DNA of 64,000 nt from Nocardioides salarius (lineage in GTDB: Bacteria; Actinomycetota; Actinomycetes; Propionibacteriales; Nocardioidaceae). The position numbers and the translations under genes are program-made. Location of the stretch: NCBI RefSeq assembly GCF_016907435.1, contig NZ_JAFBBZ010000001.1, positions 3,658,001 to 3,722,000 of the forward strand. The letters are read 5' to 3'. Positions 11,615-29,514 of this stretch are shown piece after piece. The notes under the pieces are model-generated. The model searched no databases. It was not told the DNA's origin and worked only from the letters and a program-made list of their open reading frames with translations. Positions within the stretch are counted from its first letter, which is position 1. The number at the start of each line of letters is the position of its first letter.

Positions 11615-11647
11615 CCACCGAGCTCTCCGCATCGTGAGCTCGGGTGG
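11615..11647 (+). terminator. hairpin after the DUF6153 gene
   Basis: CCACCGAGCTC pairs with GAGCTCGGGTGG (one bulged base) around a ten-base loop, ten bases after the DUF6153 stop. No T-run follows, as is usual for terminators in GC-rich actinobacteria. It could also act as a 5' leader structure for the DUF305 gene. Confidence 0.45.
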
Positions 11648-11706
11648 TCCTCGCGCCCGCACGTACCTCACGCCGCGTCTGTGCGGCATCAAGGAAAGAG
11701 ACAACT

Positions 11707-12324
11707 GTGTTCGCCCTTACCCGCATCAAGAACGTCGCCATCGCCAGCGCTGCCGTCCTCGCCCTGTCCGGCGCCCTCGCTGCCTGCGGCGACGATGCGA
11801 CCGACGCCACCGCCGACCCCTCCGCGGGACGGACAGCCGAGAACGGCGACGTCTTCAACGGCGCCGACGTGCAGTTCGCCACCGACATGATCCCCCACCA
11901 CGCCCAAGCCATCGAGATGGTCGCTCTCACCCAGGGACGCGTCCTGGACCCCGAGGTTGCCGCCATCGCCGACGAGATCCGAGGCGCACAGGAGCCCGAG
12001 ATCCAGACCATGACGACGTGGCTGACCGACTGGGGCCAGGACGTCCCTGACGCATCAAGCGGCATGGACATGGGTGGCGACGACATGTCGAGCATGTCGG
12101 GGATGATGAGCCCCGACGAGATGACTGGCCTGGCCGAGGCTTCCGACGCCGAGTTCCAGGACATGTGGATCGAGATGATGATCGCGCACCACACCGGCGC
12201 GATCGAGATGGCACAGGCCGAACAGGGCAACGGCGAGTTCCCGGATGCGATTGCGCTGGCCAAGGAGATCGAGTCCGCTCAGCAGATCGAGATCGAGCAG
12301 CTTGAAGGCCTGCTCAGCCCCTGA
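11707..12324 (+). CDS. DUF305 family lipoprotein
   Basis: The protein has 205 residues from a GTG preceded by AAGGAAAG. The lipoprotein signal ends in LSGALAACGDD. Two DUF305 half-repeats each carry the signature histidines: FATDMIPHHAQAIEM and MMIAHHTGAIEMAQ. Between them is a Met/Asp-rich segment (GMDMGGDDMSSMSGMM) suited to binding soft metals such as copper. DUF305 proteins are ferritin-like four-helix proteins common in copper and silver resistance regions; the exact role is unsettled. Confidence 0.85.
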   Translation: MFALTRIKNVAIASAAVLALSGALAACGDDATDATADPSAGRTAENGDVFNGADVQFATDMIPHHAQAIEMVALTQGRVLDPEVAAIADEIRGAQEPEIQTMTTWLTDWGQDVPDASSGMDMGGDDMSSMSGMMSPDEMTGLAEASDAEFQDMWIEMMIAHHTGAIEMAQAEQGNGEFPDAIALAKEIESAQQIEIEQLEGLLSP

Positions 12325-12330
12325 CCCCGG

Positions 12331-12350
12331 GCTTCACGCCCCGGTGAAGC
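12331..12350 (+). terminator. hairpin after DUF305 gene
   Basis: GCTTCAC and GTGAAGC form a perfect seven-base stem around GCCCCG, starting seven bases after the DUF305 stop. It looks like a factor-independent-like terminator without a T-tract. The remaining bases to 12448 show no other feature and only a weak GAAAG before the next ATG. Confidence 0.5.
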
Positions 12351-12448
12351 GGCCTCACCCAGCAAGCGTTTCCCCCGCCCCTGGGTGGGGCCGCTCGGGT
12401 CCCTCATCTGTTGCCGGCTCATGCGGCTCACACACGAAAGCACCGTCG

Positions 12449-13384
12449 ATGAACACCTCACATTCCGTCTCTGTGCCGTACCGCACCCCTCAGGGACCTC
12501 CCGCCCCCAAGCGCCGAGCAGCGCTGATCATCGGCGGCACCGGGGCTCTGCTCGCCGTCGCCCTCATGGTCTGGGTGCTCAGGGGCGACGATCATTCGAG
12601 CGCACCCGGGGCTGTCGGAGCCGGCGGGACCGTCGCAGTCGGACACATCCACGGCATCGGCATCGATCCTGGCAACGACCGCCTCTACGTCGGCGCGCAC
12701 GAGGGCGTATTCGCGGTCGGCGACAGCGGAGAGGTGCAGCCGGTCGGCACCGAACGTTTCGACACGATGGGCTTCACCGTGGCCGGGCCAGGTCGGTTCC
12801 TTGCCAGCGGGCACCCCCAGCTCGACAGCAACCGTGCCCCGCACCTGGGGCTCTTCGAGTCGAGTGACACCGCAGCAACGTGGTCGAGCGCGAGCCTCGA
12901 AGGCGAGGCCGACTTCCATGCCCTGGATTCGACCGAGACCCGCATCTGGGGTGCTGACTCGGTGGGCGGGCGGCTGCTGACCAGCTCCGACGGTCGTGAG
13001 TGGGACCTGCTCGCCGAGGGCCAGTTCATCGACGTCGCGGCTGATCCGACCGACCCAGAACGCGCCCTGGCCACCGACAGCACGGGACGGCTGCGCTCAT
13101 ACGCAGCGACCGGTGACGAGAGTGGGCTCTCCGGAGCCCCGGTCCTGACCTTCCTCGACTGGCCCACCGACGACGAGCTGGGCGGACTCGCTCCCGACGG
13201 CACGACCCTGCTCTCGCGCGACCAGGGCGCCACCTGGCAGACACGGGCCAGATTGCCCGGCAGCCCCTCCGCGTTCGAGGCCGGCGACGAGGCCTGGTAC
13301 GCCGCGAGCGACGCCGGCCTGTTCACCTCCAGCGATGACGGGGCGACCTGGACGCCGTTGTTCACCTACCAGGGCACACCATGA
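12449..13384 (+). CDS. F510_1955-type BNR/sialidase-like exported protein
   Basis: The protein has 311 residues. It has a cytoplasmic Pro/Arg-rich N-terminus, one membrane helix (ALIIGGTGALLAVALMVWVL) and a beta-propeller-like domain matching the protein at 7715-8587 block by block: GHIHGIGIDPGNDRLYVGAHEGVF, TMGFTVAGPGRFLASGHPQ, GEADFHALDS, TSSDDGATW (long blocks given only in part). Unlike its paralogue it lacks a lipobox Cys and is probably membrane-anchored. Family role in metal resistance is inferred from context only. Confidence 0.72.
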   Translation: MNTSHSVSVPYRTPQGPPAPKRRAALIIGGTGALLAVALMVWVLRGDDHSSAPGAVGAGGTVAVGHIHGIGIDPGNDRLYVGAHEGVFAVGDSGEVQPVGTERFDTMGFTVAGPGRFLASGHPQLDSNRAPHLGLFESSDTAATWSSASLEGEADFHALDSTETRIWGADSVGGRLLTSSDGREWDLLAEGQFIDVAADPTDPERALATDSTGRLRSYAATGDESGLSGAPVLTFLDWPTDDELGGLAPDGTTLLSRDQGATWQTRARLPGSPSAFEAGDEAWYAASDAGLFTSSDDGATWTPLFTYQGTP

Positions 13385-13628: not shown

Positions 13629-14474
13629 ATGGACGTGGTGACCGCCGTCGTGGGTGCTCTCCTGGTGCTGCTGGCGCTCAGGGACGTCTTCCACACCCTG
13701 TTCCATCCCGGCGACCACGGCGCGTTCAGTGCGCGGATCTGCGCTGCGCTGTGGGCGGTGGGCTCACGGGCCGGCCGACGGGGCGAGCTGCTAGCGGGAC
13801 CACTGTCCGTCGTCCTGGCCATGCTGCTGTGGATCGCCCTGCTGGTCGCCGGGTTCGCCCTGCTCTACCTCCCGCTGCTCCCGGCTGGCGCGACGTACGG
13901 GCACGGCGTGCCCAGCCGGGGCGGGGTCGAGGGGGCTGCCTACCTCTCGTCGGTCGCCCTCGCGACCCTGGGCCTGGGCGACGTGGTCCTGACCCAGCCC
14001 TGGGCGCGGCTGCTGGTCCCGTTGCAGGGACTGCTGGGTTTCGGCGTGCTCACCGCGGCCATCGGGTGGACCAGCCAGATCTACCCGGCGTTGGCGCGGC
14101 GCCGCTCCCTCGCCCTCGACCTCAGTGCCGCCCTGCGAGCGACGGCTCACGACCGGGTCGCCGTCGACCAGCTGCACCGATGGACAGCTGCCCTGAGCGC
14201 CGTCACGGTCGACCTGGTGCAGAACTCCGAGACGTTCTACTTCCGTGAGAGCGACCCCCGGCTCGGTCTCGGGTCGCTCCTCAGAGATCTCGACCTCGTG
14301 ACCGCCGCTGCACGTGAAGGCGTCGAAGACCCCTCGGACCGGCAGGTCGCGCAGGGCGCGCTCGACGAGCTCGTGGATCATCTGCTCGTGGTCCTCAGCG
14401 CACAGTTCGACCTACCGACAGACCGGTCGGGGATGCTGGCCGCGTTGGCACCGCGAGGCGCCGCCAAGGACTGA
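13629..14474 (+). CDS. ion channel family membrane protein
   Basis: The protein has 281 residues. It starts with a membrane helix, then RDVFHTLFHPG, two further helices and a pore-loop like segment AAYLSSVALATLGLGDVV before another helix; ATLGLGD occupies the place of the potassium filter TVGYGD but lacks the Tyr. The C-terminal 130 residues are soluble and helical. Family Ion_trans_2-like by layout; ion selectivity is uncertain because of the altered filter. A deleted copy of its 5' end is at 10899-11025. Confidence 0.7.
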   Translation: MDVVTAVVGALLVLLALRDVFHTLFHPGDHGAFSARICAALWAVGSRAGRRGELLAGPLSVVLAMLLWIALLVAGFALLYLPLLPAGATYGHGVPSRGGVEGAAYLSSVALATLGLGDVVLTQPWARLLVPLQGLLGFGVLTAAIGWTSQIYPALARRRSLALDLSAALRATAHDRVAVDQLHRWTAALSAVTVDLVQNSETFYFRESDPRLGLGSLLRDLDLVTAAAREGVEDPSDRQVAQGALDELVDHLLVVLSAQFDLPTDRSGMLAALAPRGAAKD

Positions 14475-16296: not shown

Positions 16297-17700
16297 TCAC
16301 CCGAGGGCGAGCACGGGCCCCGCGACCAGGCCGAGAGCGACCGCACCGGCGGCGCAGCCCATCGCGAGCCCGGCCGGAAGCCGCCGCGTGGTGCTGTCCT
16401 CGTCCTGGCCCTCGTCCTGGCCCGCCGGGGCCAGGCAGGTCGCCAGCCAGCGCAGGTAGTAGGCCAGGCTCAGCACCGTGTTGGCCGCGACCAGCACGGC
16501 CAGCCACGCCAGCCCGGCCTCCCAGGTGACCGCAATGGTGGCGACCTTGGCCACGAAGACCGCGGTGGGCGGGGTGCCCACCAGGCCGAGCAGCGCCACG
16601 CCGAGCGCGGCGACCAGCCCGGGTCGGCGCCGCGCGACGCCACGCCACTGGTCCACGCGCACGCGCTCCGGCTCGGCGCGCAGCACGGCGAAGCAGGCCA
16701 GGTTGGTCACGGCGTAGCCGGCGAGGAAGAGCAGCACCGCCGGGCGGGCCCGCTCGACGCTCGGCACGGCGGCCACCACGGCGAGCAGGTAGCCGACCTG
16801 GCTGATGGTCGACCAGCCCAGCAGCCGGCGCACGTCGCCCTGGGTGAGCGCCGCCAGGTTCCCCGCGGTCATGCCCAGCGCGGCCAGGGCGGCCACCAGC
16901 AGCGGCCACACGTCCTGGCGGGGCAGCGCCTCGAGCAGCCGCATCACCGCCACCACCGCCCCCAGCTTGGGCACCGTGGTCAGGAAGGCGGCGCTGGTGA
17001 CCCACGAGCCCTGCACCGCGTCGGGCACCCAGAAGTGCGCCGGCACCGCCCCGGCCTTGAACAGCAGCCCGAAGGCGACCAGCACCACTCCGGCGGCCCC
17101 GGCGGCGGCCGGCGCGTCGCGCACCCCGGCGCCCAGGTCGGCGTACGCCGTGGTGCCCGCGAGGCCGAAGAGGACGCCGGCCCCCAGCATCAGCACGATG
17201 CCCGAGAGCGCACCGACCAGGTAGGTCTTGAGCGCGGCCTCGGGGGCGGTGGCGGCCGCGGACAGCCCGATCAGCCCGTAGAGGGGGATGCTGGCCAGCA
17301 GGAAGCCGACCACGAGCACGGCGAGGTCGGTGGCCCCGCCCACCACCAGCACGCCGTCGGCCCCCAGCAGGAGCAGGACGTAGACCTCGCTCTCGCGGGG
17401 GTGCCCGGCCACCTCGTCGCCGGCCAGCACCAGCAGCACGAGCAGGGCGACGCCGACCACGAGCCGCAGCAGCCCGGTCGTCTCGTCGACCGCGAACGTG
17501 CCCGAGAACGCGGTGGTCGCGCCGGACAGCAGGCCGCGGACCGCGGCGGCGAGGAAGACCAGCCCCGTCAGCGCGGCCACCGCCCGGACGCGGCGCTGGC
17601 GCAGCCGCGGGGTCCACGACCCCAGCAGCAGGCAGCCGACCGCCCCGAGCAGGAGCACCAGCTCGGGCAGCAGCGCCAGGACGCTCGTGGTCATGCTCAT
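16297..17700 (-). CDS. nuoN: NADH-quinone oxidoreductase subunit N-like proton-pumping protein
   Basis: The protein has 467 residues and about 14 membrane helices. Antiporter-like signatures include the Lys of LKTYLVGALSG, LFKAGAVPAHFWVPD and the discontinuous helix around QGDVRRLLGWSTISQVGY. It is the last gene of an operon transcribed from about 24.2 kb down to here in the order A, B/D-like, H, J, K, L, M, N. It ends 16 bases from the convergent amidase gene, with no room for a long terminator. Confidence 0.88.
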   Translation of the reverse strand: MSMTTSVLALLPELVLLLGAVGCLLLGSWTPRLRQRRVRAVAALTGLVFLAAAVRGLLSGATTAFSGTFAVDETTGLLRLVVGVALLVLLVLAGDEVAGHPRESEVYVLLLLGADGVLVVGGATDLAVLVVGFLLASIPLYGLIGLSAAATAPEAALKTYLVGALSGIVLMLGAGVLFGLAGTTAYADLGAGVRDAPAAAGAAGVVLVAFGLLFKAGAVPAHFWVPDAVQGSWVTSAAFLTTVPKLGAVVAVMRLLEALPRQDVWPLLVAALAALGMTAGNLAALTQGDVRRLLGWSTISQVGYLLAVVAAVPSVERARPAVLLFLAGYAVTNLACFAVLRAEPERVRVDQWRGVARRRPGLVAALGVALLGLVGTPPTAVFVAKVATIAVTWEAGLAWLAVLVAANTVLSLAYYLRWLATCLAPAGQDEGQDEDSTTRRLPAGLAMGCAAGAVALGLVAGPVLALG

Positions 17701-17704
17701 GGCG

Positions 17705-19198
17705 TCACCGGGACACCAGGGCGGCCGCCGCGGCGGCCGCGGGCTCGAGGAGGTCGAGCAGCGGACGCGGAGCCAGGCCGATCGCCACCGCCAGGACGAG
17801 CAGCACGGCGATCGGCGCCCACTCGCGGGCCCGGAGGTCGGCGAAGCCCTCGGCGAGCCCGCTCACGGGACCGGTGAGCAGCTGCTGGACCGCACGCAGC
17901 AGCACCGCCGTCATCAGCAGGATGCCCAGCAGGGCCACCGCGCTCCAGGGCACCACCGCGACGGCGCCGGCGAAGACCTGCAGCTCGGCGACGAAGCCGG
18001 AGAGCCCCGGCAGGCCCAGCGAGCCCAGGGCCGCCAGCACCAGGAGGGCGGCGAAGCGGGGGGCGTCCGCGGCGAGCCCGCCGTACGCCGCCAGGTCGTA
18101 GCTCTCGCGGCGGGTCCAGAGCACCCCGGCCAGCAGGAACAGCGCGCTGGTCAGCAGGCCGTGGCTGACCATCTGGGTCGCCGCGCCGGTGACCGCGGTG
18201 GCCCGGGCCCCGTCGTCGGCCGGGCCGTCTCCCAGCATCCCGGCCGCCCCGACGGCCAGCACGACGTAGCCCATGTGGTTGACCGAGGTGTAGGCGACCA
18301 TCCGCTTCAGGTCGCTCTGCGCCAGCGCCACCAGCGCGCCCCACAGCACCGAGACGACGCCGACGGCCACGAGCACCGGTGCCCAGGCGCGCCAGGCCTC
18401 GGGCAGCATCGGCATCGCGATCCGCACGAACCCGTAGGTGCCGAGCTTGAGCATCACGCCGGCCAGCACGGCCGACCCGATCGCCGGCGCGTCGGTGTGC
18501 GCGGGCGGCAGCCAGGTGTGGAACGGCACGGTCGGGGTCTTGACGGCCAGCCCGAGCAGCACCGCGCCGAGCACCAGCACCCCGGTGGCGCCGCTGCCCT
18601 GCAGCGGCGGGTCGGCCGACAGCGCAACCATGTCGAAGGTGCGTGGCTCGGAGGCGACGTAGAGGCCGATGAAGCCGAGCAGCAGCGCCAGGGAGCCCAG
18701 GAAGGTGTAGAGGAAGAACTGCAGCGCCGAGCGCGCCCGGTCGCCGTGGCCCCAGCCGTGGATGGAGAAGTACATGCCCACGATGGACAGGTCGAAGAAG
18801 AGGAAGAAGACGATCAGGTCGGCGGCGGCGAAGACCCCCAGGCAGGTGGTCTCGAGGGCCAGGAACAGGGCGGCCTGCAGGCGGGGGCGCTGCTCGTCGC
18901 CGAGCGCGTAGACCGCGCACGCGGCGAACACGACGGTGGTCATCAGGACCAGTGCCAGCGAGAGCCCGTCGAGCCCGACGTGGTAGCTCGCCCCCAGGCC
19001 GGGGATCCACTGCACCTGCTGCTCGAAGGCCAGGGCGCCCGGGCCCGGGTCCTCGAACCGGGCCCACAGCACCGCGGCCAGCACCACCTCGAGGGTCGTC
19101 ACGCCCACGAAGGCCCACCGGGCCCACCGGTCGGGGACGGCCGGGACCAGCAGCGCGGCCGCGGCGAGCAGGGGGAGGAGCACCAGGACGGAGAGCAC
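17705..19198 (-). CDS. nuoM: NADH-quinone oxidoreductase subunit M-like protein
   Basis: The protein has 497 residues from a GTG start. It contains the NuoM landmarks YHVGLDGLSLALVLMTT, FFLFFDLSIVGMYF with the membrane acidic residue, VKTPTVPFHTWLPPAHTDAP and SDLKRMVAYTSVNHMGYV. The usual membrane Glu of NuoM is replaced by Asp in FFLFFDLS, which may matter for proton transfer. Four bases separate it from nuoN, three from nuoL. Confidence 0.9.
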   Translation of the reverse strand: MLSVLVLLPLLAAAALLVPAVPDRWARWAFVGVTTLEVVLAAVLWARFEDPGPGALAFEQQVQWIPGLGASYHVGLDGLSLALVLMTTVVFAACAVYALGDEQRPRLQAALFLALETTCLGVFAAADLIVFFLFFDLSIVGMYFSIHGWGHGDRARSALQFFLYTFLGSLALLLGFIGLYVASEPRTFDMVALSADPPLQGSGATGVLVLGAVLLGLAVKTPTVPFHTWLPPAHTDAPAIGSAVLAGVMLKLGTYGFVRIAMPMLPEAWRAWAPVLVAVGVVSVLWGALVALAQSDLKRMVAYTSVNHMGYVVLAVGAAGMLGDGPADDGARATAVTGAATQMVSHGLLTSALFLLAGVLWTRRESYDLAAYGGLAADAPRFAALLVLAALGSLGLPGLSGFVAELQVFAGAVAVVPWSAVALLGILLMTAVLLRAVQQLLTGPVSGLAEGFADLRAREWAPIAVLLVLAVAIGLAPRPLLDLLEPAAAAAAALVSR

Positions 19199-19201
19199 GC
19201 T

Positions 19202-21139
19202 CTACCTCAGACTTCCGACGAGGACGACCAGGGACACGACGACGAGCACGAGCAGCAGCAGGGCGACCTGCTGCAGGTAGTAGTGGTGCAGCTGGCCGCT
19301 CGCCGAGCTGCGGCGCACCGCGCGCCCGCCCCGGACCAGCGCGCCGGCCACGCCGTGGACCGCCCGGTGGGTGCCGGCGTCGGCGCGGTCGGAGCCGTGG
19401 GCGGAGGCCAGCCCCGCTGTCCCGACGCCGGTCACGGCGCGGGCCAGCACCCGGTCGTCGGCGCGGGCGGAGACCCCCGCGAGACGCGCCGTCGCCCCCG
19501 CGGCACCGGTCACGGCACGGGCGAGCACCCGGTCGTCGACCCGGGCGGCCGCCTCGGCGAGGCGCACGGTCGGTCGCACCACCGTCAGGTGCACCGCGGT
19601 CTCCAGGCGCAGCCAGTCGTGCAGCCACGCGCGCAGCGGCCGCAGCGGCGCGGGTGCCTCACGGCCCCGTCCGACCAGCCACGCGGTGGCGCCGGCCACG
19701 GCGAGCACGAGCACCGACGAACCGACCAGCTCGGGCCACGTCGGGTCGGCGGGCACCCGGCCGGGGAGCCGCTCGAGCACCGCCGGCAGGGCCAGCACCC
19801 CGAGGAGCACCGCCCCGAGTGCGAGCGGGGCCAGCGCCACCGGGATCCGGCGCGGCACCCGCCCCGTCTGCTCGGCCGGTCGGGCAGGGACAGGACGCGC
19901 GAGGTGCACCAGCGCGAGCACCGCGTAGCCCGCCGCGAGCGCGGTGGCCACCAGGGCGGCGGCGTACAGAGCAGCCGACTCGGCGTGGGCGGCGGCCAGC
20001 ACGGCGTCCTTGGTGCCCCACAGCGACAGGGGCGGCAGCCCGGCGAGCGCGAGCAGGGCGGCCACGGCCAGGACACCGAGGGCCGGCCAGCGTCGGGCAG
20101 CGCCGGTGAGCACGTCGAGCCGCTTGCTGCCCAGCGCCTCGAGCCAGGCACCGGCCGCCAGGAACAGCAGCGCCTTGACCGCGGCGTGGGCGACCAGGTG
20201 GGCGGTGCCGGCCGCGGTCGCACCGACGCCCGCGGCGAGCACGACGAAGCCGAGCTGGGCGCTGGTGGAGGCCGCCAGCAGGAGCTTGAGGTCGGTCTGG
20301 GTGAGGGCCACCGCCCCGAGGACCACGGCGGTGGCGGCGCCGAGCCAGGCGGCGGTCGGCGCGGCCCAGCCGGTGGCCTCGAGCAGCGGCGACAGCCGCA
20401 CCAGCAGGTAGCCGCCGAGGGCCACCATGGCTGCGGAGTGCAGCAGCGCCGAGACGGGGCTCGGCCCGTCCATGGCGCGGGCCAGCCAGAAGGAGAACGG
20501 CAGCTGGGCCGCCTTGCCGAGCGCAGCCACCAGCACCCCGCCTGCGGCGACGTCGCGCCAGCCGCCCTCGATGCCGGCCAGCGCGTCGAGCGAGAGGTCG
20601 GTGCCGCCGGCCAGGGCGGCCGCCGTCGCCAGGTAGAGACCCAGGTCGGCGGCGCGGGTGGTGAGGAAGGCGGTGGCCCCCGAGGCCACCCGGCCGGGGT
20701 CGGCGTAGCGGTAGCCGATCAGTGCGTACGACGCCGCGCCCATCAGCTCCCAGCCCACCAGCAGCCCCGGCAGGCTGGTGGCCAGGACGGTCAGCGCCGC
20801 CGCCGCGGTGAAGAGCAGCATCAGCCCGGTGAAGCGCGGCTCCCGGGTCTCGGGCACGCCCCCGGCCACGACCAGCACCAGCGTGGCGACGACCAGGACG
20901 GTGGGCAGCAGCACCTCGGCCGGACCACTCGTGGTCAGCCCCCACCGGGATCCGGCGACGAACGGCACCGACACCTCCGCGCCGGCGACGACCGCGGGCA
21001 CCGATGCCGTCGCCGCGGCGGCGAGGGTGGCCCCTCCGGCGGCCGCCGACCACCGGGACGGGCCGGCCAGCACCAGCACGGCCCCGACGGCCGCGGGCAC
21101 CGCGACGACGAGGACGAGCAGCAGGTCGGGGGCGCTCAC
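19202..21139 (-). CDS. nuoL: NADH-quinone oxidoreductase subunit L-like protein
   Basis: The protein has 645 residues from the GTG at 21139, which overlaps the nuoK stop (GTGA). Conserved parts are GLLVGWELMGAASYALIGYR, ATAFLTTRAADLGLYL, KAAQLPFSFWLARAMDGPSPVSALLHSA (given in pieces by these anchors) and TDLKLLLAASTSAQLGF. The C-terminal lateral-helix region has a tandem duplication of about 25 residues (DDRVLARAVTGAAG and DDRVLARAVTGVG), then YYLQQVALLLL. The duplication is not part of usual NuoL. Confidence 0.88.
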   Translation of the reverse strand: MSAPDLLLVLVVAVPAAVGAVLVLAGPSRWSAAAGGATLAAAATASVPAVVAGAEVSVPFVAGSRWGLTTSGPAEVLLPTVLVVATLVLVVAGGVPETREPRFTGLMLLFTAAAALTVLATSLPGLLVGWELMGAASYALIGYRYADPGRVASGATAFLTTRAADLGLYLATAAALAGGTDLSLDALAGIEGGWRDVAAGGVLVAALGKAAQLPFSFWLARAMDGPSPVSALLHSAAMVALGGYLLVRLSPLLEATGWAAPTAAWLGAATAVVLGAVALTQTDLKLLLAASTSAQLGFVVLAAGVGATAAGTAHLVAHAAVKALLFLAAGAWLEALGSKRLDVLTGAARRWPALGVLAVAALLALAGLPPLSLWGTKDAVLAAAHAESAALYAAALVATALAAGYAVLALVHLARPVPARPAEQTGRVPRRIPVALAPLALGAVLLGVLALPAVLERLPGRVPADPTWPELVGSSVLVLAVAGATAWLVGRGREAPAPLRPLRAWLHDWLRLETAVHLTVVRPTVRLAEAAARVDDRVLARAVTGAAGATARLAGVSARADDRVLARAVTGVGTAGLASAHGSDRADAGTHRAVHGVAGALVRGGRAVRRSSASGQLHHYYLQQVALLLLVLVVVSLVVLVGSLR

Positions 21140-21438
21140 TCGTGCAGCTCCGTGGCCATGTCGGTCATGTCGGAGCCGGCACGCCGGTGCAGCAGGGTGG
21201 CGACAGCGAAGCCGGTGGCCATCTCGACGGTCATCGCCGCCAGCACCACCAGCAGCAGGACCTGGCCGGAGGGGTCGGGGGAGAGGAACCACCAGAAGCC
21301 GCCGAGCGCGAGGAGCACGCCGGCGATCATCAGCTCCAGGCCCATCATCACCATCACCACGACCTGCTGCGAGAGGGCGCCGTAGAGGCCCACGGCCAGC
21401 AGGGCCGAGGCCACGAGCAGGACGGTCTCGAGGGTCAT
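21136..21438 (-). CDS. nuoK: NADH-quinone oxidoreductase subunit K-like protein
   Basis: The protein has 100 residues and three membrane helices. GLELMIAGVLLAL carries the first conserved membrane Glu of NuoK, and VLAAMTVEMATGFAVATL the second. It overlaps nuoJ and nuoL by four bases each, so translation is probably coupled. Confidence 0.9.
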   Translation of the reverse strand: MTLETVLLVASALLAVGLYGALSQQVVVMVMMGLELMIAGVLLALGGFWWFLSPDPSGQVLLLVVLAAMTVEMATGFAVATLLHRRAGSDMTDMATELHE

Positions 21439-22007
21439 CGGCGCTCCTCGCGGCGGTCGAGGGCGGGCGGGTCGAGGGCGGGCTGGTCGAGGTCGTCGCC
21501 CATCCGGTCGTAGCGGGTGCGCGAGGACGACAGCAGCACGCCCACGACGATCGTGGCGACCATGACCGGGCCGACGACCATCATCACCAGCATGTGGCTC
21601 TCCATGATGGCGGTGCCCAGCGCCTCGGTGACGTCGGGCGAGGGCGAGCCCCGGCGCTCGGGCCAGGGCACCAGGACCGCGCCGCTGCCCAGGGCCACGA
21701 AGGTCGCGACCGCGACCCCGATGGCGGCGCGGTGCGAGTGCACCATGCTCATCGGCATCAGCGCTGGGTTCATCCCCATGAACATGACCATGTAGACGGC
21801 CATCACGGCCATCTCCATCACCATCATCAGCACCACGACCACCCCGAGGTAGGACTGCTGCATCAGCAGCAGCGCGCCCCCGGTGGCCACGAACGAGGCC
21901 GCCAAGGCGTACGTCGCCCGCGCCATCGAGTCGACCACGAAGACCAGCACGCCCATCGCCACCGCCACCAGCGCGCAGGCCCAGAAGGCGACATCGACCA
22001 GACCCAT
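21435..22007 (-). CDS. nuoJ: NADH-quinone oxidoreductase subunit J-like protein
   Basis: The protein has 190 residues from the ATG at 22007; a GTG at 22025 that overlaps the nuoH stop is an alternative adding six residues. Five helices are visible; MARATYALAASFVATGGALLLM and YLGVVVVLMMVMEMAVMAVY (conserved third-helix region) match NuoJ. The third helix and the loop after it are unusually rich in Met (MVMFMGMNPALMPMSM). The C-terminus is charged. Confidence 0.85.
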   Translation of the reverse strand: MGLVDVAFWACALVAVAMGVLVFVVDSMARATYALAASFVATGGALLLMQQSYLGVVVVLMMVMEMAVMAVYMVMFMGMNPALMPMSMVHSHRAAIGVAVATFVALGSGAVLVPWPERRGSPSPDVTEALGTAIMESHMLVMMVVGPVMVATIVVGVLLSSSRTRYDRMGDDLDQPALDPPALDRREERR

Positions 22008-22021
22008 CGTGCTCACCGGGC

Positions 22022-22942
22022 TCACCGGCCCGCCACGACGACGATGCCGACGACGAGGTCCTGCAGCACCACCAGCGGCAGCAGCACCGTCCACAGCGGC
22101 TCCATCAGCCGGTGCACCCGCAGGGCGGGCAGCCGGCCGGCCACCCAGGCCAGCGCCGCGGTGAGCAGCAGCGCCTTGAGGAGCACCCAGACCGCCCCGG
22201 GCAGCCACGGTCCCGACGCGCCACCCAGGAAGAGCGGCACCGCCACGGCGGCACCCGCACCGAGCAGGGCGTAGCGCGCCGCGCGCACCACCAGCGCGTC
22301 CGGCCCCGACAGCTCGGCCAGCACCCCCTCGGCGCTCTCGCGTCCGGCCGGTGCGACGAGCGGCCCGAGCACCGAGAAGCCGAGCACCCCCAGCAGGTAG
22401 GCGACGAAGGCGACCGGCATCCACGCGGCGTACCAGAGCGAGCCCTGGGCGCCGGCGACGACGGCGAGGTCGAGGCTGCCGGCGGCCAGGGCCGGCGCGA
22501 CCAGCGCGAACATCAGCGGCAGCTCGTAGGCGAGGGCGAGCGCCAGGAAGCGGTAGCCGCCGACGAGGCCGACCACGGAGTTGGCGCCCCAGCCCACCAG
22601 CCAGACGAAGGCCCACACGAGGATGTCGAGGGTGTTGGCCCACACCACGCCGAGCGAGCCGGGCAGCAGCGCTGCGTCCTCGAGCGGCACAAGTGCGACC
22701 AGCAGCACGGCCACGGGCAGCAGCGACCAGCCGGCGAGGCGCCAGAGCAGCCGGTCGGCCGAGATCGTGTCGCGCCGGCGCTGGCGCAGCAGCCGGGCCG
22801 TCTCGCGGGGGGCGTGCAGCACGGCGTCGCCGCCGCTGCGACCGGTCGCGACGGCGTACGACGCGCTGGCCGTCCAGGCGAGCACGAAGGTCAGCAGCAG
22901 GACCCCGGCGGCGCCGGTGGTGGCCGCGAGCGCCTCAGTCAC
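22022..22942 (-). CDS. nuoH: NADH-quinone oxidoreductase subunit H-like protein
   Basis: The protein has 306 residues and about eight membrane helices, with AYELPLMFALVAPALAAGS, PLVAPAGRESAEGVLAELSG and a C-terminal MEPLWTVLLPL. NuoH normally binds quinone and contacts NuoB/NuoD. Several usually invariant loop residues (for example the EREIPG-like loops) are replaced here, so this is a divergent member. It overlaps the upstream NuoB/D-like gene by eight bases. Confidence 0.82.
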   Translation of the reverse strand: MTEALAATTGAAGVLLLTFVLAWTASASYAVATGRSGGDAVLHAPRETARLLRQRRRDTISADRLLWRLAGWSLLPVAVLLVALVPLEDAALLPGSLGVVWANTLDILVWAFVWLVGWGANSVVGLVGGYRFLALALAYELPLMFALVAPALAAGSLDLAVVAGAQGSLWYAAWMPVAFVAYLLGVLGFSVLGPLVAPAGRESAEGVLAELSGPDALVVRAARYALLGAGAAVAVPLFLGGASGPWLPGAVWVLLKALLLTAALAWVAGRLPALRVHRLMEPLWTVLLPLVVLQDLVVGIVVVAGR

Positions 22943-23894
22943 GACCGGCTCCTGCGGCTGACGGCTCTAGCAGCGGTGCGTGGGTGGCGACCAGCAGGCG
23001 CACGTCGCCCAGGTCATGGCCCTCGAGCAGGGACGCCAGCGCCTCGTCGTCGAGCCGGTGCGTCGAGACGTCGATGCGCTCGTCGAGCAGCCGCCCGAGG
23101 ACGTCGGTCACGGAGTGCGGCAGCACGTGGTGCTGGGCCAGGCGGGTCAGGTGGGCACGCAGCCGGCGGCCTCCGCCGTCGAGCTCGGGTCCCGGTCGCT
23201 GGTCGCGCACCGCCCGCGCACGCGCGGCCCAGACGTCGTCGCCGACCAGGGACAGCACGCGGGCCACGGCGTCCCAGGCCGCGACGGCGGCCGGCACGTG
23301 GGTGGGGCTCGCCGGGCGCTGCACCTCGACGTGCGCCACGACGTCGCCGTGCAGCCGGGTGTGCAGCTCGAGACCGCCGGGCCAGTGGTCGAGCAGGGGG
23401 CCGAGCGGGTGCACCAGGACGTCCATCTCCAGCCCGTCGCGGTCGTCGTCGCCCTCGGCGAGCGGGATGCCTCCCGGTGCCATCTCCATGTCGCCGTGGT
23501 CCATGTCGCCGTGGTCCATGTCGTCCTCGACCCAGGAGCCCGCGGGTTCGCGGTCGCGCTCGCGGGCGTCGAGGCGCTGCTGCGGGTCGTCGCGCAGGGA
23601 CGCCTGGGCCCTGTCGAGCTCGGCGACGACGTCGTCGGGGCCGGTGGGACAGGCCCGGGTCCGGGGGCCCGGCAGCTGGTCCCAGAGCAGGTCGACGGCG
23701 CTGGCCAGCTCTTCGGGCACGCTGCCTGCCAGGAGCAGCACGTCGGCGCTCCCCGGCGCTGTGCCGGGGGGCCAGCCGCGGCGGTCGAGCTCGCGCTCGG
23801 CCGCCATCCGTGCCTGCGTGCCGCCCGGCATCTCGATCACGAGCACCCGCGGACGGCTGGTCGCGGCACGTACGAGGAGCTGTCTCAGGCCCAA
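22935..23894 (-). CDS. degenerate NuoB/NuoD-like protein lacking Fe-S ligands
   Basis: The protein has 319 residues; the TTG at 23894 is preceded by GAGGGGG and overlaps the nuoA stop. Residues 10-95 (RVLVIEMPGG, GSADVLLLAGSVPEELASAV, WDQLPGPRTRACP) resemble a NuoB core but contain a single Cys, so the N2 cluster cannot be held. A linker DDMDHGDMDHGDMEM follows, then GLEMDVLVHPLGPLLDHWPG and LHGDVVAHVEV, reminiscent of the NuoD start, and a helical tail. It sits where NuoB-C-D would be and probably caps the membrane arm. Metal binding by the linker is possible. The assignment is from position and weak similarity. Confidence 0.55.
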   Translation of the reverse strand: MGLRQLLVRAATSRPRVLVIEMPGGTQARMAAERELDRRGWPPGTAPGSADVLLLAGSVPEELASAVDLLWDQLPGPRTRACPTGPDDVVAELDRAQASLRDDPQQRLDARERDREPAGSWVEDDMDHGDMDHGDMEMAPGGIPLAEGDDDRDGLEMDVLVHPLGPLLDHWPGGLELHTRLHGDVVAHVEVQRPASPTHVPAAVAAWDAVARVLSLVGDDVWAARARAVRDQRPGPELDGGGRRLRAHLTRLAQHHVLPHSVTDVLGRLLDERIDVSTHRLDDEALASLLEGHDLGDVRLLVATHAPLLEPSAAGAGRD

Positions 23895-24226
23895 CGGAAG
23901 GCCCCCTCGCGGCGTGCCCAGGCAACGGCACTCAGCAGGATCGCCAGGAAGGCGAACATCTCGATGACGGCGCCGGGGCCGAGGTCCTCGACGACGACCG
24001 CCCAGGGGTACATGAAGAGCATCTCGACGTCGAAGGCCAGGAAGACGACGCTGGCCGCGTACCAGCGCGGGTGGTAGCGCGACAGCGCGTGCTGCAGCGG
24101 CACCCGACCTGAGGTGTGCGGCAGCACCAGCAGCGGCGTGGAGTCCACCGTGAGGACCCGGTGCCACACGAGGAGGGTGAGCAGCACCCCGGCCACCAGT
24201 GCCAGCGTGGTGACGAGCTCGAGCAC
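23885..24226 (-). CDS. nuoA: NADH-quinone oxidoreductase subunit A-like protein
   Basis: The protein has 113 residues and three helices. The GTG at 24226 has GAGGAGG just upstream. YHPRWYAASVVFLAFDVEMLFMYPWAV contains the conserved FDVE of the second helix (motif given within 27 residues by its key part FLAFDVEMLFMYPWA). It is the first gene of the operon and divergent from the ArsR gene at 24286, with a dyad operator between. Confidence 0.87.
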   Translation of the reverse strand: MLELVTTLALVAGVLLTLLVWHRVLTVDSTPLLVLPHTSGRVPLQHALSRYHPRWYAASVVFLAFDVEMLFMYPWAVVVEDLGPGAVIEMFAFLAILLSAVAWARREGAFRWA

Positions 24227-24244: not shown

Positions 24245-24266
24245 TGTCCGTACGATGGTGCGGACA
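24245..24266. promoter_or_regulatory. dyad operator between the nuo-like operon and arsR-type gene
   Basis: TGTCCG and CGGACA are exact complements separated by ten bases, starting 18 bases before nuoA and ending 19 bases before the ArsR ATG. Position and form suggest that the ArsR protein represses itself and perhaps the complex-I-like operon. Binding is inferred. Confidence 0.6.
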
Positions 24267-24285: not shown

Positions 24286-24660
24286 ATGAGCGTCCACACC
24301 CATCCGGTTGACCGGGCCGCGGTCGCACGGGCCCGTGACCGGCTCCCGTCCGCCGAGGTCGCCTCCGACGTGACCAGCGTGCTCACGCTGATCGCCGACC
24401 CGACCCGCATGCGCCTGCTGTTCGCGCTCGACGCCGCCGAGGAGCTGTGCGTGGGCGACCTGGCGCTCGCCCTGGAGGTCAGCGAGGACGCTGCCAGCTA
24501 TGGCCTGCGGATGCTGCGCACCGCTGGCCTGGTGCGCCGGCGCCGCGAGGGAAGGATGGGGTTCTACCGACTGGCTGACGGGTTCCCAGAGCCGTTGCGC
24601 CAGCACTGCCTGCTGCGGCTGGGAGAGATGGGCACGCACTCCGAGGAGGACCTGACGTGA
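24286..24660 (+). CDS. ArsR/SmtB family metal-responsive repressor (CadC/CmtR type)
   Basis: The protein has 124 residues. The winged helix shows LIADPTRMRLLFALDAAEELCVGDLALAL, where ELCVGD is the Cys motif of Cd/Pb sensors (CadC, CmtR); the recognition helix is SEDAASYGLRMLRTAGLV and the wing RRREGRMGFYRL. The N-terminal HTHP and the C-terminal H and C residues could add ligands. GGAGAGGAG precedes the ATG. A small membrane protein and a multicopper oxidase follow in overlap, pointing to copper or another soft metal as signal. Confidence 0.87.
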   Translation: MSVHTHPVDRAAVARARDRLPSAEVASDVTSVLTLIADPTRMRLLFALDAAEELCVGDLALALEVSEDAASYGLRMLRTAGLVRRRREGRMGFYRLADGFPEPLRQHCLLRLGEMGTHSEEDLT

Positions 24661-24827
24661 TGCCGAGCGAGCTGGTGGTCATTCTTCAGGCCCTGGTGAA
24701 GGCACAGGGGACCCCCGGCGTCGAGAGCGGCGGCTGGGGTGTCGCCGACATCCGCTCGTGGTTGGTGACGCTGCTCGTGCTGGGCCTGCTCGCCGTCGTG
24801 GCGTGGTGGGCGCGAGGGCGGCGGTGA
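24660..24827 (+). CDS. small single-helix membrane protein
   Basis: The protein has 55 residues (MPSELVVILQALVKAQGTPG at its start) with one C-terminal membrane helix ending AVVAWWARGRR. The ATG overlaps the ArsR stop (TGATG) and its TGA overlaps the GTG start of the multicopper oxidase, so it is translated as part of this operon. No family recognised. Confidence 0.6.
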   Translation: MPSELVVILQALVKAQGTPGVESGGWGVADIRSWLVTLLVLGLLAVVAWWARGRR

Positions 24828-26314
24828 GCGCCGGCGGGTCGGGTCCGCAGGAGCGGGGGGTCACGCGCCGCGGGGCGCTGCGGATCGGCGGCGTCGGCCT
24901 GCTGGCGGCGGGCGCGGGAGCCGCTGGCTGGTGGCGCTTCGGGCCGGAGTCGGCCCTCGAGCCCCGCACCGGTGCGGCACTGGTGGAGCCGGCGGTCGTG
25001 AGCAGCGAGTCGGGCCTCCTGGACGTGCGGCTCGTGGCTGGTCGTGGGGAGCGCCTGGTGGCGGGGCGACGGGCCGACGTCCTCGGCTACAACGACGGGC
25101 TGCCGGGCCCGACGCTGCGGGTGCGACCGGGCGACACCCTGCGCATCGAGCTGGTGAACCGGCTCGATGCGCCCACCAACCTCCACGTGCACGGGTTGCA
25201 CGTGTCCCCGGAGGGCAACGGCGACAACGTCTTCGTGGCCGTGCAGCCGGGGGAGTCGTTCGAGTACGAGCACCGGTTGCCCGACGACCACCCGCCGGGG
25301 GTGTTCTGGTACCACCCCCACCACCACGGCAACGTGGCCGACCAGGTCTTCGGGGGCCTGTACGGCGCCATCGTGGTCGAGGATCCCCCCGACGCCGCCG
25401 GCGGTGCGGAGGTCGAGGTGGCCCGTGAGCGGGTGTTGGTCGTCTCCGACATCAGCCTCGACGAGTCCGGGTCCCTCAAGGGGGCCTCGATGCAGGACCG
25501 GATGATGGGTCGCGAGGGCGACCTGGTGCTGGCCAACGGCCAGGTGATGCCCGTCCTCGAGGCGCGTCCTGGCGAGCGGGAGCGGTGGCGGGTGGTCAAC
25601 GCCTGCGTCTCGCGCTACCTGGAGCTCGACCTCGGCGACCAGCAGCTGGACCTGGTGGCACGCGACCTCGGTCCGCTGACCGAGCCCAGCGCGGGGGAGG
25701 CCGTCGTGCTGGCTCCCGGCAACCGGGCCGACATGGTGCTGACGGCGGTCTCCGGCTCCACCACGGTCCGGCTCGTGCCGGTCGACCGGGGTGAGTCGGG
25801 GATGGGCGGGATGATGGGCGGCGACGGAGCCGCGTCAGATGCGGTCGACCTGCTGACCTTCGAGGTGGCGGGGACCGTTGTCGGGGGCGGGCGTCCCCTG
25901 CCCAGCCCCGTGGCGGCGCGCGACCTGCGCGGCCAGGAGCCCACGCGCCGCCGCGAGCTCGTCCTCGAGACCGGCATGGGGATGGGCGGGATGAGCTTCA
26001 CCTTCGGAGGGCGCGCGTTCGACCCGGACCGCACCGACCAGGAGGTCGCCCTCGAGGCCGTCGAGGACTGGACGATCCGCAACGACAGCTCGATGGACCA
26101 TCCGTTCCACCTGCACGTGTGGCCGATGCAGGTGCTCGACGCCGGTGACGGTCCGGTGCAGGACCCGGTGTGGCGCGACGTGGTCAACGTCCCGGCGCGT
26201 GGGACGGTGACGGTCCGGGTGGCCTTCGACCTGCCCGGCCGCACCGTCTACCACTGCCACGTCCTCGACCACGAGGACGCCGGCATGATGGGCGTCGTCC
26301 GGGTCGGGGGGTGA
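24824..26314 (+). CDS. Tat-exported multicopper oxidase
   Basis: The protein has 496 residues. The N-terminus TRRGALRIGGVGLLAAGAGA is a twin-arginine signal. Copper ligands are visible in all four expected motifs: LHVHGLHV, WYHPHHHG, HPFHLHVW and YHCHVLDHEDAGMMG (T1 Cys and axial Met). Met-rich patches MGGMMGGDG and GMGMGGM resemble the CueO/CopA Met-rich segments. It likely oxidises Cu(I) or organic substrates outside the membrane. It is translationally coupled to the ArsR gene through the small protein. Confidence 0.92.
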   Translation: MSAGGSGPQERGVTRRGALRIGGVGLLAAGAGAAGWWRFGPESALEPRTGAALVEPAVVSSESGLLDVRLVAGRGERLVAGRRADVLGYNDGLPGPTLRVRPGDTLRIELVNRLDAPTNLHVHGLHVSPEGNGDNVFVAVQPGESFEYEHRLPDDHPPGVFWYHPHHHGNVADQVFGGLYGAIVVEDPPDAAGGAEVEVARERVLVVSDISLDESGSLKGASMQDRMMGREGDLVLANGQVMPVLEARPGERERWRVVNACVSRYLELDLGDQQLDLVARDLGPLTEPSAGEAVVLAPGNRADMVLTAVSGSTTVRLVPVDRGESGMGGMMGGDGAASDAVDLLTFEVAGTVVGGGRPLPSPVAARDLRGQEPTRRRELVLETGMGMGGMSFTFGGRAFDPDRTDQEVALEAVEDWTIRNDSSMDHPFHLHVWPMQVLDAGDGPVQDPVWRDVVNVPARGTVTVRVAFDLPGRTVYHCHVLDHEDAGMMGVVRVGG

Positions 26315-28356: not shown

Positions 28357-28826
28357 GAGGGATCACTCCGGACGGTGGAGGCGGGCACGTTCGTGGGGGT
28401 GGCGCAGCTGCTCTCGCCGGCCAGGCGGCGCTGCAACGCCCAGGCCAGCAGGGCGACGGCGACGAGCTGGAGGAGGGGCTGGACGGGCTCGAACCAGGTC
28501 ATCGCGCCGGCGCTGCCGAGGGCGAGGAGCACGAGCTTGTTGCAGACCGGGCAGCCGACGGCGAAGAAGGTGAGCGTGCCGCCGATCCAGCCGCCCCGCC
28601 CGGCGGGGTCGGGCCCCTGCTGCTCCGGTGCGGCGACGTACGTCGCCACCAGCAGGCCGGCCAGCAGCGAGGAGACGACCAGCGACGGCCAGGCCCACCA
28701 GGTCGGGGGCACCTCGCGGCCGAAGATCGGGGTGTCGACCAGGTCGGTGGGTACGGCCACGACCAGCGCGAACGCCAGGCTCGCCACGACGGCGGCGCCC
28801 CAGCGGCGCGGCGTCCAGGCGGTCAT
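28353..28826 (-). CDS. small four-helix membrane protein with CPVC motif
   Basis: The protein has 157 residues. Hydrophobic segments surround FFAVGCPVCNKLVLLAL, placing a CxxC pair at or in the membrane, as in several thiol-redox membrane proteins; the C-terminus has one more Cys. I do not recognise the family with certainty. Its position between the ArsR-rhodanese and DsbA-like genes, with four-base overlaps on both sides, suggests a part in the same redox pathway. Confidence 0.6.
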   Translation of the reverse strand: MTAWTPRRWGAAVVASLAFALVVAVPTDLVDTPIFGREVPPTWWAWPSLVVSSLLAGLLVATYVAAPEQQGPDPAGRGGWIGGTLTFFAVGCPVCNKLVLLALGSAGAMTWFEPVQPLLQLVAVALLAWALQRRLAGESSCATPTNVPASTVRSDPS

Positions 28827-29491
28827 GCGCCGACCTCGACGGGGTGCCCGTGGGTGCGCCACTCGAGCATCCCGTCCTCGAGGCGGCGGGCATCGATGCC
28901 GGCGGCGGCCAGGATGCGCACCGCGTCGTGGGCCATCACGCAGAACGCGCCGCGGCAGTAGGCGATGACCGGGCCACGGGCGCGCAGGTCGTCGACCGCG
29001 GTGGCCAGCTCCTCCAGCGGCACGCTGCGGGCCCCCGGCACGTGCCCGGCGAGGAACTCCTCGACGGGGCGCACGTCGATGACGTCGGCGCTGCCCTCGT
29101 CGAGGGCCGCCGCGAGGTCGTCGCGGGTCACCAGGCCGACCTCGCCGGAGCCGGGCACGTCGAGGTAGGCCGCCAGGGCGCGCTCCACGTCGGCCGAGCG
29201 GTGCCGGCCCACGGTGCGCAGGGCGTCGTACAGAGCCGCGACGTCGTCACCGGCGAGGCGGTAGTGCACGCGCGTGCCCTCGCGCCGGGTGCTGACCAGG
29301 TTGGCCAGCTTGAGCACCTGCAGGTGGGCCGAGACCGTGGTGACGCCCATGCCCGCGGCGCGGGCCAGCGCGTCGACGGTGCGTTCGCCCTGGGCCAGCA
29401 GGTCGACCAGCTCGAGGCGGCGCGGGCTGGCGAAGGCCTTGCCGACCACCCCGAGCTCGTCGAAGAGGGAGCTGCGTCGCTCGTCGTCCAT
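28823..29491 (-). CDS. ArsR-family regulator fused to a rhodanese domain
   Basis: The protein has 222 residues. Residues 1-95 are a winged helix (AFASPRRLELVDLLAQGERTV, VTTVSAHLQVLKLANLV, STRREGTRVHYRL). Residues 120-215 are a rhodanese domain with VIDVRPVEEFLAGHVPGARS and the loop IAYCRGAFC holding the catalytic Cys. Such fusions are thought to sense or process sulfane sulfur. The ATG at 29491 has GAGGA before it. It leads a four-gene overlapping operon, with a dyad operator eight bases upstream of the start. Confidence 0.87.
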   Translation of the reverse strand: MDDERRSSLFDELGVVGKAFASPRRLELVDLLAQGERTVDALARAAGMGVTTVSAHLQVLKLANLVSTRREGTRVHYRLAGDDVAALYDALRTVGRHRSADVERALAAYLDVPGSGEVGLVTRDDLAAALDEGSADVIDVRPVEEFLAGHVPGARSVPLEELATAVDDLRARGPVIAYCRGAFCVMAHDAVRILAAAGIDARRLEDGMLEWRTHGHPVEVGA

Positions 29492-29498
29492 CCATTCC

Positions 29499-29514
29499 TC
29501 CAATGATCTTTGGA
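29499..29514. promoter_or_regulatory. dyad operator before the ArsR-rhodanese operon
   Basis: TCCAA and TTGGA flank six bases (TCCAATGATCTTTGGA). It lies within 25 bases of the start codon, where an autorepressor would block transcription or leader translation. It overlaps the Shine-Dalgarno region, so transcription is likely to start close by. Confidence 0.55.

Follow-up and report, generated by a model that had tools for sequence, protein, structure and literature searches.

Respiratory complex I (NDH-1) has 14 subunits, and it has long been asked how the chemistry at one of its ends is linked to the movement of protons at the other. Among its described relatives, 11-subunit complex-I-like enzymes such as that of Desulfitobacterium, in the part of the account available, lack the NADH module (PMC11238625), and Ehr/Mbx-type hydrogenase-related complexes are members of the complex-I superfamily that have lost catalytic metal ligands and are thought to couple a redox reaction (PMC6349859). 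Mrp cation/proton antiporters have antiporter-like subunits of the L/M/N type, a K-type subunit (MrpC) and no redox centre. The closest described gene set is the "partial NDH-1" or "partial nuo" operon, nuoA-hypothetical-nuoHJKLMN, of Salinispora, Streptomyces and Kocuria (PMC3314556, PMC4018334, PMC6002675, PMC6676996), the patchy spread of which was ascribed to horizontal transfer in the passages available. In those passages, Penn and Jensen, and then later authors, interpreted it as a marine adaptation operon, with a proton pump serving marine or osmotic adaptation (PMC3314556, PMC6002675, PMC6676996).

The window analyzed here, 64,000 nucleotides of the Nocardioides salarius genome, carries on its minus strand, at 16297-24226, eight contiguous genes in the same order, including a hypothetical protein gene after nuoA, tightly packed and mostly overlapping: A, BD, H, J, K, L, M, and N. 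The first-pass annotation had described seven Nuo-type membrane genes plus one NuoB/D-like gene and no C, E, F, G or I; all eight genes were indeed present, and neither the open reading frames nor Pfam revealed any of these five missing genes within the operon. The A, H, J, K, L, M and N assignments were all above the curated Pfam cut-offs. This arrangement is far beyond chance, the same gene order being found again in more than 50 loci.

The operon shares with respiratory complex I the orthologues of A, H, J, K, L, M and N, the NuoB fold and most proton-channel residues, but has no recognisable C, D, E, F, G or I and no N2 ligands, has a new Met/His core, and forms a separate NuoM clade. The 11-subunit enzyme, as far as its partly available account goes, lacks only the NADH module (PMC11238625), whereas the window operon, from which NuoE/F/G are likewise absent, is also without C and I, and its B subunit has no cluster ligands. 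Unlike the Ehr/Mbx-type complexes (PMC6349859), it has no recognisable large catalytic subunit or FeS ligand; no large subunit homologous to [NiFe] hydrogenase/NuoD was found by profile, the C-terminal region of BD being poorly modelled. It differs from Mrp antiporters in having NuoA, H, J and a NuoB-type cap, its best family matches were to Nuo and not to Mrp, and MrpE/F/G were not found in the operon. The published accounts of the partial nuo operon, in their available parts, do not include the cluster-free NuoB identity, the copper context, the CsoR sites or the Met ladder reported below, and we found no paper in the open-access literature that connects the operon with copper, recognises the hypothetical gene as NuoB or mentions the Met ladder. 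On the evidence that follows, the complex probably handles copper ions instead of electrons, and its genes are often plasmid-borne among copper-resistance genes.

The BD gene (22935..23894, minus strand, TTG start, overlapping A) encodes the hypothetical protein, with a NuoB-fold domain (residues 1-115) without FeS ligands, a Met/His-rich linker and a C-terminal domain. No Pfam family was matched and NCBIfam NuoB was matched only weakly (E 2e-4), but a profile of 19 homologues found NuoB/NDUFS7 of solved complex I structures in the PDB (hmmsearch, E about 1e-8) and aligned with canonical NuoB by hhalign (prob 96, E 3e-9). The AlphaFold model, with pLDDT mostly above 80 over residues 1-115, matched NuoB chains with a structural Z of up to 9.9 over residues 1-120; it covers the NuoB domain only, the C-terminal part being of low confidence. 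By profile and structure comparison, the N-terminal half is clearly NuoB. The D part of the initial "NuoB/D-like" label was not supported: hhalign with NuoD gave a probability of 0.2%, and PDB matches of the C-terminal half reached only E about 2. Judged by eye, a GP-x-LxGD spacing in BD recalls the N-terminus of NuoD, without being significant, and the protein should better be read as NuoB plus a C-terminal domain without assigned homology.

The single Cys of the window BD, which had been pointed out from the sequence, is non-conserved in the alignment; at the N2 ligand positions, the canonical NuoB of this genome shows CC...C...C, and the N2 Cys ligands were absent from all 19 aligned BD members. 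Ordinary NADH-quinone electron transfer is thus impossible, as had been proposed, with the N2 ligands gone and no input arm. The linker contains a metal-binding-type stretch at residues 126-138 (23481..23519, minus strand), MDHG(D)MDHGDMEM. Among 35 unique BD linkers, the median was 20% His and 10% Met, His and Met together came to 20 residues (median), MDHG repeats were typical, and no linker was poor in both. BD of Roseivivax and Acuticoccus has no His-rich stretch, and in these genera NuoJ carries a long His-rich tail at its C-terminus instead; a shorter His-rich tail is found on the NuoJ C-terminus of Halomonas. A metal-binding-type tail has thus been kept, though on different subunits, the BD linker or, in Pseudomonadota, the NuoJ tail.

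The N. salarius genome (4.47 Mb, one contig) contains a complete canonical 14-gene nuo operon near 2.73 Mb, a search for which had been suggested as a check, and, genome-wide, a single NuoB, a single NuoD and a single NuoF, all of them inside this canonical operon. No spare electron-input genes were found in the genome. An ion pump powered by another redox partner standing in for the missing input arm, close to what was first suggested, is compatible with the intact membrane arm and with the formate dehydrogenase near the operon on a Halomonas plasmid. We consider it highly improbable, given that BD has no FeS ligands, the genome has no spare NuoB, NuoD or NuoF, and no constant oxidoreductase neighbour was seen among 56 operon sites. 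The idea of a driving partner was left unsupported in this way and by substitutions that point to metal binding, while that of an ion-translocating module agrees with the retained membrane arm.

A second 8-gene operon of a distinct type lies in the same genome at 3.63 Mb (about 3629250-3637760), 50 kb from the first. It adjoins another multicopper oxidase gene, an F510_1955-like gene and a P-type metal ATPase gene, and a long repeat of the MDHGGHEG type is found in its BD. One copy of each operon type is likewise present in another Nocardioides genome. Between the second copy and that of another genome of the genus, DNA identity is 94%, against only 89% for the canonical nuo operons of the two genomes, which indicates recent transfer.

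The operon was found in about 27 of 394 sampled Actinomycetes genomes, scattered across many families, counting matches well above the ~30-bit background from canonical NuoB; its occurrence outside Actinomycetes rests on plasmids. Plasmid carriers included Mycobacterium, Rhodococcus, Gordonia, Pseudonocardia, Arthrobacter, Curtobacterium and others in Actinomycetota, and Halomonas, Vreelandella, Roseivivax, Acuticoccus and Martelella in Pseudomonadota, with the Martelella copy interrupted and that of Vreelandella annotated in fragments. In the NuoM tree, all complete copper-type sequences grouped in a single clade (support 100/99), separate from canonical NuoM. The operon is thus conserved, mobile and of one clade across Actinomycetota and Pseudomonadota. 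On mobilizable plasmids of the clinical mycobacteria M. avium and M. intracellulare, the operon lies beside copZ, a metal P-type ATPase gene and the nocobactin-type synthase gene nbtC. On the Halomonas sp. KO116 plasmid (L042:19798-27908), it is followed by egtB/egtD for ergothioneine biosynthesis and by formate dehydrogenase, and adjoins a full pco/cop copper cluster.

The membrane subunits are under purifying selection in two more diverged comparisons, with dN/dS of 0.03-0.33, lowest in J and K; the comparison with the very close N. cremeus rests on few changes. BD was the least constrained of the operon (dN/dS 0.35-0.58). A decaying nuo remnant without function might be suspected from BD, which evolves quickly and is short in the window copy, but this reading is barely credible beside the constraint on the membrane subunits, the gene order conserved in two phyla, the spread by plasmids and the transfer indicated by the 94% versus 89% identity.

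In the window, a divergent ArsR/SmtB-type metalloregulator gene (24286..24660, plus strand) and a CueO/CopA-type multicopper oxidase gene (24758..26314, plus strand), both recognized by profile matches, lie upstream of nuoA. Downstream of the operon, genes for a DUF305 protein (11644..12324, plus strand), a recurrent neighbour in copper islands, and for an F510_1955-like protein (12245..13384, plus strand; true start probably downstream), also a recurrent neighbour, were located. A search for copper markers (CopA, CopZ, CsoR, multicopper oxidase, DUF305, F510_1955, and CueR) in the flanks of 56 operon sites detected at least one at 37 sites and at least two at 25, compared to none in 20 random 19-kb control regions, nearly all from carrier genomes. 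The association held with query-donor sites removed (28 of 45, p 6e-7) and at the unbiased genome-survey sites alone (13 of 20, p 6e-6). Genes cueR, copA, copZ, pco, csoR and those for multicopper oxidases adjoin the operon on plasmids of both phyla. At about one-third of the sites no copper marker was present within the flanks examined, and some of these do carry a CsoR-type operator. In an unbiased Pfam tally of 124 neighbouring proteins at 12 mostly marker-free sites, rhodanese was commonest (6), followed by metallo-beta-lactamase (4), and no single alternative partner was seen.

Nine loci, including some that are closely related, have the CsoR-type operator TACCCC-N3-GGGGTA, or a one-letter variant, in the region upstream of nuoA; 380 kb of control DNA gave no match. 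These sites agree with the S. lividans CsoR consensus ATATACCCCTNAGGGGTATAT (PMC3902906). A CueR-type operator was searched for upstream of nuoA and none was found. In the window, the signal for a conserved ArsR operator was weak; the dyad TGTCCG-N10-CGGACA between nuoA and arsR (24245..24266) is a weak candidate, imperfect in N. cremeus. As a family, not at every site, the operon is strongly linked genetically to copper genes and copper-type operators. The metal or stress role first proposed from the regulator and the oxidase was borne out and sharpened to copper by the markers and the CsoR-type operators.

In the membrane subunits most proton-channel residues are retained, and in NuoJ, NuoK and NuoA invariant new Met residues surround the carboxylates kept in the proton path. 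NuoL (19202..21139, 645 aa) retains E131, K209, H234, K285, H318, K322 and K377. NuoM (17705..19198, 497 aa) keeps K220, K251 and E405 and has Asp136 at the position of the canonical Glu in all 49 aligned copper-type sequences. In NuoN (16297..17700, 467 aa), the TM5 Glu is replaced by Leu (134), Lys385 is kept, and Lys215 is kept in 35 of 41 sequences. By these residues the proton channels are largely intact. In the NuoH-like subunit (22022..22942, 306 aa), E140, E210 and R131 are kept and several canonical quinone-side charges (189E, 192R, 199E, 201E, and 223E) are lost. These four genes are on the minus strand, as are the following three.

The Met content, compared with that of ten canonical operons of the same class, averaged 10.3% in the family's NuoJ versus 3.9% in canonical NuoJ, and 9.8% versus 5.1% in NuoK; L, M, N and H were poorer in Met than their canonical counterparts, so the gain in J and K is not a general bias. 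In NuoJ (21435..22025, 196 aa), assigned by Pfam and belonging to a Met-rich family, residues M67, M68, E71, M72, M75, M79, M83, M85, M92, M94, H96 and M145 were invariant among 65 unique sequences from both phyla, and none of the 12 is present in canonical J. Five of them, M68-M72-M75-M79-M83, make up together with E71 a Met ladder in the membrane that canonical NuoJ does not have; here M68 replaces a canonical conserved Tyr and E71 a canonical conserved Ala of TM3. The ladder of TM3 and the next loop (residues 67-96, 21738..21827) reads MM-ME-M..M...M.M.M.MNPALMPMSMVH; the structure model of J (pLDDT 56) was too poor for placing it. NuoK (21136..21438, 100 aa) gained the invariant M29, M31, M69 and M73 beside the retained E35 and E72. 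The NuoA-like subunit (23885..24226, 113 aa, GTG start), assigned by Pfam, gained H46 and H52 and, beside the retained D66 and E68, M69 and M72; NuoH gained M144, four residues past E140. The new Met residues of A, H and K are at most 4 residues from retained carboxylates. These invariant substitutions by Met, His and Glu speak for metal binding and not for electron transfer.

With redox lost, proton channels largely kept, soft-metal ligands around the carboxylate path and a copper-regulated setting, a proton-coupled Cu(I) exporter would be the simplest single explanation. Most likely, the operon encodes a redox-free, copper-handling membrane complex derived from complex I that serves copper resistance and would work as a Cu(I)/H+ exchanger, a reading to which we give about an even chance; copper binding, transport, its direction and its coupling are what we infer. 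In this reading, BD would cap the membrane arm as a NuoB without a cluster, and its His/Met-rich linker, or in Pseudomonadota the His-rich NuoJ tail, would gather cytosolic Cu(I) and hand it to a chamber lined with the new Met residues beside the retained carboxylates of NuoA, NuoH, NuoK and NuoJ. From there, Cu(I) may travel along the TM3 Met ladder of NuoJ in exchange for protons entering via the NuoL/M/N/K channels, which would provide the driving force, and be exported to the multicopper oxidase outside. Somewhat short of an even chance is the evolutionary picture in which the proton-coupled membrane arm of complex I was converted to a Cu(I)/H+ exchanger, the redox arm being reduced to a NuoB cap that has no cluster and bears a tail for collecting copper, and the central carboxylate path becoming a Met-lined copper route.

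Several points speak against an exporter, among them the poor J model and the roughly one-third of sites at which no copper marker was seen in the flanks examined. The metal-binding tails could alternatively serve for sensing or storage. The central carboxylate path of complex I follows the membrane rather than crossing it, and a way for copper through the membrane is therefore not evident. The window copy is under an ArsR-type regulator rather than CsoR.

The main rival, possible but rather unlikely, is a copper-induced complex that would itself transport no copper but act as a Na+(K+)/H+ antiporter or a proton conductor and bring pH, proton motive force or osmotic balance back to normal, with the Met/His residues sensing copper and gating. 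The proton residues retained in L, M, N and K would suit it, and it is close to the proton pumping or osmoadaptation already proposed for the partial nuo operon (PMC3314556, PMC6002675, PMC6676996). Genes of the K+ channel type near 10 of the 56 operon sites, sometimes close before nuoA (plasmids of Acuticoccus, Martelella, and Pseudarthrobacter), fit either this antiporter or the exporter; in the window, such an ion-channel gene lies at 13629-14474. The antiporter leaves unexplained the approximately 12 invariant Met/His residues in the NuoJ core and the new Met residues beside the carboxylates of A, H and K. A restriction to marine or hyperosmotic habitats was not seen, carriers having come from soil, human sputum, sediment, a glacier and metal sulfide rock besides the sea, which weakens the marine reading.

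A copper importer or metallation device loading cuproenzymes, e.g., the adjacent multicopper oxidase, has in its favour that Met ladders also occur in copper importers and that a multicopper oxidase gene is present in the flanks of 23 of the 56 sites. It is nevertheless improbable in surroundings that are resistance islands with CopA, CsoR and CueR, and regulation through CsoR sites implies induction by excess copper.

If the Cu(I) exporter is correct, it would represent a new class of heavy-metal transporter and, to our knowledge, the first member of the complex-I superfamily whose coupling is to a soft metal ion and not to redox chemistry. A natural redox-free version, its coupling path rebuilt from metal ligands, would reveal what the membrane arm is capable of on its own and offer a simpler system for testing coupling. 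The copper reading would, moreover, account for a gene set found widely among actinobacteria and on plasmids, those of clinical mycobacteria included, that is annotated as NADH dehydrogenase and has been attributed to marine adaptation.

Beside the multicopper oxidase gene of the window, a cluster of thioredoxin/DsbD/DsbA-like genes ends with a gene for an ArsR-type regulator fused to a rhodanese domain (28823-29503). Public records of repeat-rich BD genes (L041:14376-15413, L046:14376-15485, and L010:9059-10162) split them, call antisense open reading frames or mask them with N, and such mis-annotation may be the reason the protein stayed "hypothetical."
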